From the NCBI GenBank assembly GCA_903854475.1, contig CAINWP010000220.1:1-50034 (forward strand): DNA of 50,034 nt. Reading direction: 5' to 3'. The stretch is from an uncultured Verrucomicrobiota bacterium. Its GTDB lineage: Bacteria > Verrucomicrobiota > Verrucomicrobiia > Limisphaerales > UBA9464. Positions within the stretch are counted from its first letter, which is position 1. The number at the start of each line of letters is the position of its first letter. A program made the position numbers and the translations under genes. Positions 46,828-50,034 of the stretch are shown here, one piece after another. Below the pieces are notes generated by a model, which ran no database searches, was not told the DNA's origin, and saw only the letters and a list, made by a program, of their open reading frames with translations.

Positions 46828-47304
46828 TTAGCCCTTGTTTTCGGGAGGAGGGGTTCCGGGTGACTCGATATCGGGCGGGGTCAATCCGGTGCGCGTGTAG
46901 AAGCGGGGGGTATTCTTGTCGCGCTTCAGACTTACTTCAAATTTCAGAGCGGCCTTGCGCGAAAGCTTGTCGTGCCGCCACACCACGGGCCACGGGCCCG
47001 GTTGGCCGGTCCATTTGGCCACCTCGGTGTCGGCCGTCAGGGCAAATTGATCCAGGTGCTCGGTATGACCCACGAAGCAGCGCCCCGCCGGATTGCGGAG
47101 GACGAAGACGGACCAGATGTCGGACGGATCGGACGGAGCCGGAGCAGAAGATTCCACGTCCCAAGCATGGGGCGAGTCACCTTGGAGGGGGAGCAGATTC
47201 GCTTCTTGCGGCAACGGACTCGCTAGCAAACGGACCCTCCCCCGGCTCACCGCCGCATCGAGGCCGAGGCGCCGTCGGCGAGGGTCTGGATCCTCTTCGC
47301 ACAA
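46828..47304 (-). CDS. degenerate GIY-YIG-like protein, probably catalytically inactive
   Basis: 158 residues from the ATG at 47302-47304; a GTG at 47155-47157 would give 109 residues and is more plausible, because the first 20 codons run through a remnant of the kinase gene in another frame. The C-terminal part IWSVFVLRNPAGRCFVGHTE, then AKWTGQPGPWPVVWRHDKLS and ALKFEVSLKRDKN follows the GIY-YIG (YhbQ/UPF0213-like) layout WYVYLL..DGRFYVGIT...KWTRGRGPW.LVY...ALRREKELKR. The catalytic Tyr pair and the Arg after the second strand are replaced (Val/Phe and none), while the helix Glu is kept. Nuclease activity is therefore doubtful. Family assignment is from motif layout only. Confidence 0.5.
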   Translation of the reverse strand: MCEEDPDPRRRRLGLDAAVSRGRVRLLASPLPQEANLLPLQGDSPHAWDVESSAPAPSDPSDIWSVFVLRNPAGRCFVGHTEHLDQFALTADTEVAKWTGQPGPWPVVWRHDKLSRKAALKFEVSLKRDKNTPRFYTRTGLTPPDIESPGTPPPENKG

Positions 47305-47309
47305 AACTC
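47247..47309 (-). pseudogene. displaced copy of the 3' end of the PfkB/KdgK-like kinase gene
   Basis: On the minus strand this reads CAKRIQTLADGASASMRR and stop (TGA at 47247-47249). The truncated kinase gene at 49033-49351 ends RAAEIQALADGASASMRR and stop. The DNA is identical over 26 bases from 47245 (aligned with 49031) and, after one mismatch, over 13 more; weaker similarity extends on both sides (about 47226-47309). The two copies are direct repeats flanking the toxin-antitoxin module. Confidence 0.75.
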
Positions 47310-47690
47310 GATGAGTCGTTTCTTTGGAAGGGATGTCAGTACCGGTTTTAAAACTACTGAGCCCAGAAACTCAACGGATCATCGATTGGGCCTCAGCTTG
47401 TCGGTTGCCCAAACGAATGCTCATCAACTCTGCTGGACCCCGGACACATTGGGTCTTCATTGGCAGAAGGATTAACCGCCGGCGTTCATCTTGGAAGGAG
47501 ACGGATCCGAATATCCGCCAACGCTGAGGATTTCAAACCGGCAGTTTTCCTTGGATTCTGGAACGTTGCTGAGAGCCCACGAACCGGGCTGAATAAATCC
47601 AATGCCTTTGCCCAGGCTCATTAAGGCGACGGGATTCGCCGCGCTGGGCGCGCGGGATTTTCTCGAGGCGACCGGTCCGATCCCAGATTT
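47310..47690. other. gene-poor stretch upstream of the toxin-antitoxin module
   Basis: No open frame here is convincing; the longest plus-strand reading (47324-47527, 67 residues) has no recognisable motif, and the minus-strand frames overlap the antitoxin gene. Base composition is lower in G+C than the flanking core genes. A 14-base palindrome-free segment near 47600 shares CCAATGCCTTT with the CRISPR repeat, probably by chance. The stretch lies inside the presumed inserted segment between the two kinase 3' ends. Confidence 0.4.
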
Positions 47691-47722
47691 CAGGGCTCCG
47701 TCTGGTCAGGGCTCCGTCTGGT
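47691..47722. repeat. perfect 16-bp tandem duplication upstream of the antitoxin gene
   Basis: CAGGGCTCCGTCTGGT occurs at 47691-47706 and again at 47707-47722 without mismatch. It lies 13 bp before the inverted repeat that may be the operator of the module. Confidence 0.9.
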
Positions 47723-47734
47723 TTCTGCGGATGA

Positions 47735-47759
47735 TTTACAAGGTTGACTACTTTGTAAA
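47735..47759 (+). promoter_or_regulatory. candidate operator of the Xre/RES module
   Basis: Arms TTTACAA (47735-47741) and TTGTAAA (47753-47759) form an inverted repeat with 11 bases between; the spacer contains TTGACT (47744-47749), a possible -35 box. It ends eight bases before the antitoxin ATG. Xre-type antitoxins usually repress their own promoters through such palindromes. The promoter assignment is uncertain because no good -10 box follows. Confidence 0.5.
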
Positions 47760-47767
47760 CCGATGCG

Positions 47768-48358
47768 ATGCCTTCTTCCATGACCACGGTCGCTTTGAAG
47801 CACGCGGGGAGCTTGGAGTTGTCGAAAGACGACCAGGCGGTGGTGAAGGAGTTCAACAGCGTGCTGCGAAAGCATGCGAAGCGCTCGGCCGGCTCCTTGG
47901 CCCGACTGGCGGAGGTGGCGTTTAGCCATTCATTTGGCGGGGGTTCCACCCGTCGGGAAAAGCTCGATCTGGCTATGGCTCGGGGAGTTTTGGCCCGGCA
48001 GGAGCTGATGGATGAGGAGGGCGGAAGCCTGTCGTCGGAGGCCGTATCCGGCCTCTTGGGCCTCTCCAAGCAGGCGGTGATGAAGCGCTTGAAGGCCGGT
48101 ACGTTGTTGGCGTGGCGGGAAGAGCGGCTGAAAGCGGCCCGGTTTCCACGGTGGCAATTGGATGCCCATGGGCATGTGCTGCCGGGCTTCGAGGAGGCGT
48201 TGAGGATTCTTAATCAGGACGAACGTCTCGATACGTGGGCGAAGATGCTGTTCTTCCTTCAGGAGAAGCCGTCGCTGGGTGGAAAGCGGCCGTTGGACCT
48301 GTTGCGCGAGAAGAAGCTCGAACAGGTGCGGCTGAGCGCTCAGGCCTATGTCGAGTGA
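47768..48358 (+). CDS. Xre/MbcA/ParS-type antitoxin
   Basis: 196 residues; ATG at 47768, with another at 47780 (MTTVALKHAGS). The layout is that of RES-partner antitoxins: a variable N-terminus (LSKDDQAVVKEFNSVLRKHA), a helical DNA-binding segment (GSLSSEAVSGLLGLSKQAVMKRLKAGTLLAW; helix-turn-helix with the typical S-K-Q-A-V-x-x-R core), and a C-terminal DUF2384/MbcA-like region with GFEEALRILNQDERLDTWAK and the end GGKRPLDLLREKKLEQVRLSAQAY. It should bind and block the RES toxin and repress its own promoter. It overlaps the toxin gene by 11 bp (translational coupling). The middle of the protein is longer than many Xre antitoxins. Confidence 0.85.
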   Translation: MPSSMTTVALKHAGSLELSKDDQAVVKEFNSVLRKHAKRSAGSLARLAEVAFSHSFGGGSTRREKLDLAMARGVLARQELMDEEGGSLSSEAVSGLLGLSKQAVMKRLKAGTLLAWREERLKAARFPRWQLDAHGHVLPGFEEALRILNQDERLDTWAKMLFFLQEKPSLGGKRPLDLLREKKLEQVRLSAQAYVE

Positions 48359-48962
48359 TCCGTCTTCAGGGCGTCGGGACACCTACCTGCCGCGCTCGGA
48401 TTTCAACAGCCTCAGCATCCCGATGTCGCGTCAGCCGAAGCGGCATTGGTTTCGGGTTCATCGATCAGAACTGCCGGCGATCGACTTCGGGATCCGGCCC
48501 TACCATCGTTTTTCGCATCCGGAATCCCTCTTTCCCCTGCTGTATGTGGGAGCGTCTCTCTCGACGTGCCTTTGGGAGTATTTCGGAGACGATATTTTTA
48601 GGCGGAGGCAGGTGATTTCCAAGGTGAAGTGGGACGGCTGCAGCCTGAGCAGGATTGAAGTCCCCCAATTGCGAGTGTGCTCCATGGGTGATGGGAGGAC
48701 GCGGGAGGTGATGAGGGTGGATGTGTCGGCCGTTTACGACGCAGATCTTCATGTGCCCCAGTCCTGGTCTTTAGCCATTCAAAGACACCCTTCGGGTTTT
48801 GAGGCGATCCAATACCTGAGCCGTTTCAGCGATGAGCCTTGTTTGGCGGTGTTCGATCGCTCCGGGATCCACGACCGGCTCAAGGAGATCCCGATGGGAT
48901 CCTTGAACGAGCTCGACGAGGCGGTTCAGTGGTTGACTGAGCGCGGAGCGGCGTTGGTGTAG
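48348..48962 (+). CDS. RES-domain toxin
   Basis: 204 residues; the ATG at 48348 overlaps the antitoxin end. The RES domain shows WFRVHRS (Arg), LLYVGASLSTCLWEYFGDD (Tyr and Glu) and FEAIQYLSRFSDEPCLAVFD (Ser/Arg), the R-E-S residues that name the family, in the right order. Characterised RES toxins (MbcT, ParT, PP_2434/Res) are ADP-ribosyltransferase-like enzymes that degrade NAD+ or modify targets, stopping growth. The first 30 residues (DPSSGRRDTYLPRSDFNSLS) are an extra extension. The module sits between the two kinase 3' ends and beside the CRISPR array, i.e. in a defence-rich patch. Confidence 0.87.
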   Translation: MSSDPSSGRRDTYLPRSDFNSLSIPMSRQPKRHWFRVHRSELPAIDFGIRPYHRFSHPESLFPLLYVGASLSTCLWEYFGDDIFRRRQVISKVKWDGCSLSRIEVPQLRVCSMGDGRTREVMRVDVSAVYDADLHVPQSWSLAIQRHPSGFEAIQYLSRFSDEPCLAVFDRSGIHDRLKEIPMGSLNELDEAVQWLTERGAALV

Positions 48963-49032
48963 CCTCGCCCGACCCAGGATTTGTCGGCCCCATTCAAAGT
49001 GTTGTGCCCGACCCGAACGTCCGCTCCGCCGC

Positions 49033-49351
49033 TCACCGCCGCATCGAGGCCGAGGCACCGTCGGCGAGGGCTTGTATCTCTGCGGCCCGGAACTGCGAGG
49101 TGTCTCCCCGGGTGGTGTGGACCAGTGCGGCATAAGCCAAGGCGAAGTCTAGTGTTCGGCCGAGCGGTAGGCCTGACAGGAGTCCATGCAAGAGGCCGGC
49201 GGAGAACACATCGCCGGTGCCCACACGATCCACGATCTCGAGGTCGCGGTATTCCCGGCCCCGGCCGAAGCGCGGGCCTATGCCGACGAATCCGCTCAGG
49301 TCGTGCCGATTCCCTTGATGCACGTCCGCGATGCTGCTGACGGCAACGAGA
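49033..49351 (-). pseudogene. 3' fragment of a PfkB-family sugar kinase (KdgK-like), cut by the CRISPR array
   Basis: About 105 C-terminal residues remain, from VALVAVSSIADVHQGNRHDL to the stop at 49033. The conserved PfkB signature is present: EIVDRVGTGDVFSAGLLHGL, with the catalytic Asp in GTGD, followed by LDFALAYAALVHTTRGD. This matches 2-dehydro-3-deoxygluconokinase rather than fructokinase (HTxxGD ending). The N-terminal two thirds, with the sugar-binding domain, are missing: upstream (to the right) the reading enters the first CRISPR repeat directly. The fragment cannot be active. The remainder could lie beyond the array outside the window. Confidence 0.8.
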
Positions 49352-50034
49352 GCTACCAATGCCTTTCGGCCTGTTGTGGTGTTGTTACAAGGAGCCGACG
49401 CAATGCTCAAAGCGAGGGAGGTCAAGTCACCAATGCCTTTCGGCCTGTTGTGGTGTTGTTACAACGATGACCAATTTTTCAGCGTTCGGGATTAGAGGGC
49501 GTCACCAATGCCTTTCGACCTGTTGTGGTGTTGTTACCTGGATCAAGCGCGGCGAAGCTCTCGTTGAAGTCGTGACGTCACCAATGCCTTTCGGCCTGTT
49601 GTGGTGTTGTTACGAAACTATGCGTTCTAATCCTACAGCCGCATTTGATAAGTCACCAATGCCTTTCGGCCTGTTGTGGTGTTGTTACAACGCGAACACA
49701 GCATCGACGGCGGTAAAACGTGGCTCCGTCACCAATGCCTTTCGGCCTGTTGTGGTGTTGTTACGCGACAAAGAGATGGACAAGGTGCTGGCGGACACGA
49801 AGGAGTCACCAATGCCTTTCGGCCTGTTGTGGTGTTGTTACCTGCCCGAGGACGCTCGCCTCATCGCCTCCGCCCCCGAGTCACCAATGCCTTTCGGCCT
49901 GTTGTGGTGTTGTTACATATCCTTCCGCGCTGAAAGCCGCGAATGACTACGGCGTCACCAATGCCTTTCGGCCTGTTGTGGTGTTGTTACCTAAATCCCA
50001 ATTCTAAATCCCATGAAAGTCCTAGAATAGTCAC
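49352..50034. CRISPR. CRISPR array, nine 37-bp repeats plus the start of a tenth; no cas genes in window
   Basis: The repeat begins GTCACCAATG, contains CCTTTCGGCC and ends TGGTGTTGTTAC. Copies: 49352-49388 (first three bases degenerate), 49426-49462, 49501-49537 (one G to A at position 18), 49577-49613, 49652-49688, 49728-49764, 49805-49841, 49880-49916, 49954-49990; GTCAC at 50030-50034 is the start of another. Spacers are unique and 37, 38, 39, 38, 39, 40, 38, 37 and 39 bases long. On the minus strand each repeat holds a GCC-GAAA-GGC hairpin followed by ATTGGTGAC, like the stem and 3' handle processed by Cas6-type nucleases. Left-end decay suggests that the leader is to the right. Class 1 is the likelier class; type cannot be fixed from the repeat alone. 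Confidence 0.97.

Follow-up and report, generated by a model that had tools for sequence, protein, structure and literature searches.

A CRISPR array cut by a contig end in an uncultured Verrucomicrobiota bacterium as the probable leader-distal part of a type III-B locus inserted at a pfkB-family kinase gene

In the III-Bv system CRISPR3 of Synechocystis sp. PCC 6803, host RNase E recognises the stem-loop of the pre-crRNA and cuts the single-stranded region that follows it, as summarised in a review (PMC10989914), and the mature tag is reported to be 13 nt long, AUUGAUUGGAAAC (PMC3575380). Other III-B loci are described as borrowing Cas6 from a second system (PMC11127173), and in Bacteroides fragilis III-B a CRISPR-associated NYN nuclease is described as working beside Cas6 (PMC11346440). 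For the type III-B system of Marinomonas mediterranea it is reported that the crRNA has to be antisense to its target RNA and that, of the spacers taken up by RT-Cas1, almost half lie in a useless orientation (PMC5576922). Here, we describe a CRISPR array at a contig end in an uncultured Verrucomicrobiota bacterium. The best explanation overall, to which we give a probability of about 0.8, is that the array is the leader-distal end of a III-B locus inserted at the 3' end of a kinase gene and split by the assembly, with transcription from the minus strand, putative processing by RNase E/G and antisense targeting of phage mRNA.

The array in the window and the cas locus on contig C329

The window, which is the whole stretch of DNA analysed, is the entire contig C220 (50034 bases) from a genome of 340 contigs (97.32 percent complete, 3.24 percent contamination). 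Nine 37-nt repeats lie at 49352..49990, the first at 49352-49388 and the last at 49954-49990, with eight complete spacers of 37-40 nt between them. Seven of the nine repeats are identical, the repeat at 49501 has one mismatch, and the outermost one at 49352, at the presumed trailer end of an array probably transcribed from the minus strand, is degenerate with two. On the 3' side, a ninth spacer of 39 nt and 5 nt resembling the start of a tenth repeat (49991..50034, minus strand) are cut by the contig end; the contig stops inside the array and the record holds nothing further to the right. The repeat was not found elsewhere in the window within 12 mismatches on either strand. The near-identical repeats and regular spacers bear out the view of an earlier note on this DNA that the array is genuine.

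The identical repeat is present in 19 more copies on contig C329 of the same genome, and no copy within 3 mismatches was found in any of 58 other genomes searched. The array on C329 occupies positions 3-1384, and a cas2 ORF lies 204 bp beyond it. From the array onwards, all on the minus strand, the genes are cas2, cas1, a gene for an NE0113-type CARF protein, a 116-aa DUF2130-like ORF, genes for a CARF-PD-(D/E)XK and a CARF-HEPN protein, cmr1, cmr6, cmr5, cmr4, cmr3 and cas10/cmr2. The Cas10/Cmr2 protein matches PF12469 and PF22335 above cut-off and has a GGDD palm motif at residue 687. The genes for Cmr1, Cmr3, Cmr4, Cmr5 and Cmr6 are all present, Cmr5 being recognised by PADLOC models only (E 9e-11). 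Among the three CARF proteins of the locus, the NE0113-type protein carries the NCBIfam name ring nuclease, the CARF-HEPN protein corresponds to TIGR02710 and contains the motif RNASILAH, and the PD-(D/E)XK nuclease contains ELD...VDCKH. No reverse-transcriptase match was found in Cas1 in Pfam. All genes of the operon were placed in cas families except the 116-aa ORF.

The locus on C329 with its array is a type III-B CRISPR-Cas locus with its own cas1-cas2, and by its genes it should work like a III-B system with cyclic-oligoadenylate effectors. The earlier note had seen no cas genes to the left of the array, which holds for the 12 proteins encoded by the cas locus on C329: a tblastn search of these against the window gave no convincing match (best E 0.026, over 65 aa of cas2). 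It had also considered that cas genes might follow to the right, and they are found on C329 of the same assembly. A less-studied subtype, which it had thought possible in that case, finds no support, and an unknown or rare subtype is ruled out by the III-B gene set. The orphan array served in trans that it had offered otherwise is ruled out as well, since the same repeat adjoins the cas locus.

The 116-aa ORF (L006, which is C329, 4412-4762, minus strand) matches only the last third of DUF2130 (PF09903, above cut-off), and a relative with 72 percent identity is present in locus L019. Rfam searches of L001 and L006 gave nothing at gathering score.

Spacer targets in one phage lineage

Exact 22-mers from seven spacers were tried against viral contigs. 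Matches were obtained for one spacer, C329 939-975, in 19 contigs, with 37/37 identity in 18 of them; the 22-mers of the other six gave none. The target gene encodes a RecT-like annealing protein (phrog_561; below the Pfam RecT cut-off) and is followed by an exonuclease gene (phrog_412). The best cultured-phage matches of this RecT are less than 60 percent identical. A phage set was assembled from 80 of 119 contigs with relatives of this RecT and was thus chosen via the target of a single spacer. In this set, 8 of the 27 visible spacers match at no more than 7 mismatches, a fraction that is valid for this lineage only, and the other 19 have no match in it. Matched spacers on C329 are those at 413, 565, 640, 716, 939 and 1088, with best mismatch numbers of 1, 7, 0, 5, 0 and 6, respectively. 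In the window they are those at 49389..49425 (minus strand; best 3 mismatches, 6 contigs) and 49689..49727 (minus strand; best 5 mismatches, 2 contigs). At least one spacer match was found in 51 of the 80 contigs and two or more in 49. In a control with five shuffled versions of each spacer, one locus minimum fell at or below 10 mismatches, at 9.

All eight matched crRNAs are antisense to the target gene, as judged from RecT-oriented contigs, ORFs and codon-position substitution patterns. The support for this orientation is strong for recT and for the target genes of 565 and 1088, fair for 716 and 49689 (one tested contig discriminates) and weak for 49389, while for 413 it comes from the exonuclease ORF. 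Calling the strand by the longest ORF had made some targets sense; this was overruled by the oriented contigs and codon periodicity. No PAM-like flank shared among the eight targets was found. These eight spacers, all oriented for RNA targeting, link the bacterium to uncultivated phage contigs.

The targets of C329 1088 and 565 fall within one stretch of 110 bp (L149:18874-18982), and those of 939 and 640 are similarly close in recT; target sites look clustered along the phage genome. Self-targeting was considered and rejected, as the array parts matched only the arrays and a 25-bp kinase stretch in the source genome. Neither array part matched phage records, and in plasmid records each gave one weak match (30 bp, E 0.1, and 26 bp, E 0.6), which we take as chance. 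The array had been called recently active in the earlier note. The support for this is only indirect: the repeats are almost identical, and two spacers, which are not the leader-proximal ones, match present viral contigs without a mismatch.

Repeat class and crRNA processing

Transcription of the array from the cas2 side, on the window's minus strand, is suggested by the gap that precedes cas2, by the degenerate repeat at the outer end on C220 and by a conserved core near one end of the repeat, and the orientation of the spacer targets agrees with this. The repeat is then GTAACAACACCACAACAGGCCGAAAGGCATTGGTGAC. Its unfamiliar look in the earlier note is partly explained by the choice of strand: the one considered there is probably untranscribed, and its complement ends in ...GGCATTGGTGAC, which is an ATTG-type end. 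On the crRNA strand, the repeat ends with a GCC-GAAA-GGC hairpin followed directly by AUUGGUGAC, leaving 9 nt after the hairpin. In the predicted fold within the C329 array transcript, 16 of 19 repeats on the crRNA strand form the hairpin with a probability above 0.6, versus 4 of 19 on the other strand, and the AUU after the hairpin has a mean unpaired probability of only 0.53.

A search with this Cas10 identified 52 loci in genome contigs. Verrucomicrobia, Lentisphaerae or Kiritimatiellae groups, to which we take some of the names to belong, account for the titles of 44 loci, and the other eight include Hydrogenedentes, Omnitrophota and Acidobacteria. An array finder detected 12 arrays in 11 of the 52 loci, with repeats of 36-38 nt and a short stem-loop near the end. 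This stem-loop is GCC-GAAA-GGC in nine of the arrays, GCC-GACA-GGC in two (both L030) and CCC-GACA-GGG in one (L042), the last being a compensatory change at one pair. The repeat-core pattern derived from the 12 arrays, GCCGAMAGGCRNTKRWGAC, is present in 34 of 53 genomes with this Cas10, in 31 of them in at least two copies, versus none of 53 for the reversed control; this count omits four loci, L017, L025 and L027 (genome shared with others) and L060 (very partial). It is absent from 19 of the 53, including Oligosphaera ethanolica and the genome of L042.

The source genome shares its family with the genome of L017 (G019/G067). Among 50 genomes of the family, the core occurs in all six with this Cas10 (in G099 as one copy only) and in two of the 44 without it (one copy in G001, two in G102), an association with a hypergeometric probability of about 2e-6 when relatedness is ignored. 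The repeat is one of a class rather than a singleton. The hairpin alone is not diagnostic, because a Leptospira broomii repeat is reported to have the identical hairpin string, GCCGAAAGGC (PMC4758666). In the titles and abstract openings of the papers surveyed, we recognised no description of this repeat class in Verrucomicrobiota. The leaders of four loci, compared by eye, had no clear motif.

Single core copies at L115:1501 (G001) and L117:1501 (G099, near a contig end) stand without a visible array and may be chance occurrences, array remnants or ectopic repeats. In G008, which belongs to the same genus as the source genome, 96 core copies lie on two contigs (L026; C68 and C90), and the Cas10 match has an internal stop codon in one stretch.

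Models for Cas6 (PF10040 and TIGR01877) had no match in the draft source genome, so that a Cas6 shared from another system was not found there with them either, and no gene of the C329 operon matched an NYN-type nuclease family. Among genomes with this Cas10, covering some of the 52 loci, TIGR01877 scored above cut-off in none of 31, with one weak match in G085. PF10040 did so in one of 36 genome labels (G085, titled Acidobacteria), with a match below cut-off in G074; the 36 labels stand for 33 distinct genomes, as G008/G075, G019/G067 and G026/G076 share coordinates. In 14 well-known genomes used as control, TIGR01877 was positive in seven and PF10040 in only two. Within the phylum, TIGR01877 matched 9 of 194 genomes at E 0.001 and two above cut-off. 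From these counts, Cas6 can be found in such genomes, with models that are not fully sensitive. RNase E/G was found above cut-off in 34 of the 36 labels (31 of the 33 distinct genomes), including the source genome, where TIGR00757 scores 493.5 bits at G000:C80 (44062-45351).

By analogy with Synechocystis, it is plausible that host RNase E processes these repeats. Observations that count against the overall reading are the mean unpaired probability of the AUU, a 9-nt tail that is shorter than the Synechocystis tag, the 19 of 53 Cas10 genomes without the core, a Cas6 search limited to two models on draft genomes, and the 19 of 27 spacers unmatched in the phage set. The main rival keeps the same III-B locus and assigns repeat cleavage to a Cas6 that has diverged beyond the reach of the two models or lies in an unassembled part of the genome; we hold this to be a real possibility, a little below even odds. 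Cas6 is a fast-diverging family, seven of the nine TIGR01877 matches in the phylum fall below cut-off, and a hairpin just before the repeat end is a type of site that Cas6 enzymes also cut. Borrowing from a second system, as described for other III-B loci (PMC11127173), would fit as well. Against a diverged Cas6 stand the above-cut-off counts among genomes with this Cas10 and an operon in which only the DUF2130-like ORF is left without a cas family. A phmmer search with three Cas6-like proteins of Verrucomicrobiota and Acidobacteria likewise gave no relative among 3887 ORFs of III-B loci, a weak negative since one query misses the other two.

More broadly, we tentatively suggest, at somewhat less than an even chance, that Verrucomicrobiota and their neighbours have a widespread III-B branch, often with its own cas1-cas2 and lacking Cas6, whose hairpin of the GCC-GAAA-GGC type and 9-nt tail are due to processing by host RNase E. 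If this were true, RNase E maturation would be the rule of a whole lineage and not a special case of Synechocystis.

Probable insertion site and comparison with known systems

C220 and C329 share the 3' end of one pfkB-family kinase gene. Window positions 49013-49324 are 97.1 percent identical over 312 bp to C329:15659-15970, which is the 3' end of an intact kinase gene beyond cas10 (C329:15679-16908). In the window, the duplicated end is a kinase 3' fragment at 49033..49324 (minus strand), and the 27 bp between it and the first repeat (49325..49351) form the insertion junction. In G011 and G017, two genomes of the same genus, an intact kinase runs straight into window-like DNA without CRISPR, representing the empty site. 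The kinase side of these genomes is 97.2 and 96.6 percent identical to C329 over 2,750 bp, and the downstream DNA is about 95 percent identical to window 47520-49324 (G011) and 48181-49324 (G017). The two kinase 3' copies differ from each other at 8 positions over 290 bp, and from G011 at 6 (intact gene) and 10 (fragment). G010 and G016 are uninformative on the empty site, as their downstream DNA has no match in the window.

Since both contigs carry this kinase end and the flanks are joined without CRISPR in G011 and G017, C220 and C329 are, on sequence grounds, very probably opposite flanks of a single inserted locus. The two parts are tied further by their spacers, which on both contigs hit the same phage lineage. 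Both contigs also break inside the array in the same orientation, with the degenerate repeat and the leader gap at opposite ends. As the contig ends do not overlap, we infer their adjacency, and a count of the missing repeats cannot be given.

An earlier insertion appears to have occurred at the same kinase end. It includes a RES-domain protein, likely a toxin (48348..48962, plus strand), and an overlapping 196-aa ORF without Pfam match that is a possible antitoxin partner (47768..48358, plus strand). To the left lies an older, shorter copy of the kinase 3' end (47229..47317, minus strand), which by comparison with relatives is the probable ancestral site. In G005, the kinase is joined directly to the DNA left of 47229-47317, with neither the RES module (47768-48962) nor CRISPR in between, and BLAST placements in G001, G007, G012 and G018 are of the same kind.

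A single kinase gene shows two nested insertions at its 3' end, first the RES module and then CRISPR-Cas (window 47229-49324 and L006:15659-16908), each apparently leaving a copy of that end, which is a possible hotspot for defence-type modules. A 592-bp stretch of lower G+C (0.554) between cas10 and the kinase (L006:15067-15658) has no identified gene and may hold a trace of the arrival of the locus.

The flanking copies, direct repeats of 312 bp with 97.1 percent identity, could also be read in the opposite direction, with a CRISPR-Cas locus that is old here and was lost in relatives: a single recombination between them would produce the arrangement found in G011. We consider this improbable: among 19 genomes of the genus only G008 has this Cas10 besides the source genome, with its kinase on another contig; G005 has neither the RES module nor the CRISPR locus; and insertion is the simplest way to account for a duplicated 3' gene end. 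The array on C220 might also belong to the same system but be independent of the C329 array and sit at another place in the genome, as the non-overlapping contig ends and the arrays of the same repeat core on two contigs in G008 could suggest. This is very unlikely, because C220 and C329 carry the two halves of one empty site and break in the array in the same orientation with the degenerate repeat and the leader gap at opposite ends.

In the preferred reading, the apparent orphan array is one side of a single III-B (Cmr) locus inserted at the 3' end of the sugar-kinase gene and split by the assembly between C220 and C329. The pre-crRNA would be transcribed from the cas2 side, on the window minus strand, and cleaved immediately after the GCC-GAAA-GGC hairpin of each repeat; as no Cas6 was found, host RNase E/G is the most likely enzyme. 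The 5' ends of the crRNAs would be expected just after GGC, giving a tail of AUUGGUGAC or UUGGUGAC, and the crRNAs would pair with phage mRNAs of recT, the exonuclease and other genes. Judged from the protein families, Cmr with Cas10 would produce cyclic oligoadenylates as a signal that activates both the CARF-HEPN RNase and the CARF-PD-(D/E)XK nuclease and is ended by the NE0113-type ring nuclease. With its repeat core common to many Verrucomicrobiota, the locus lends itself directly to testing how crRNAs are processed where no Cas6 has been found.

Compared with type III-B (Cmr) systems with CARF effectors, the locus has the same Cas10/Cmr2, Cmr1, Cmr3-6, CARF-HEPN, CARF-PD-(D/E)XK, ring nuclease and own cas1-cas2 with array, and it differs in that no Cas6 was found with two models in the locus or the genome. 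With the RNase E-matured Synechocystis CRISPR3 as described, it shares type III-B and a repeat with a predicted stem-loop and an AUUG directly after it, which may be single-stranded as it is there. Taken with the negative Cas6 search, this is a resemblance to III-Bv rather than proof of membership, and the tag there is 13 nt (AUUGAUUGGAAAC) whereas only 9 nt follow the hairpin here. Marinomonas mediterranea has a type III-B system with the same antisense requirement, as reported; there, almost half of the RT-Cas1 spacers lie in the useless orientation, whereas here Cas1 is without a reverse-transcriptase match and eight of eight matched crRNAs are antisense.
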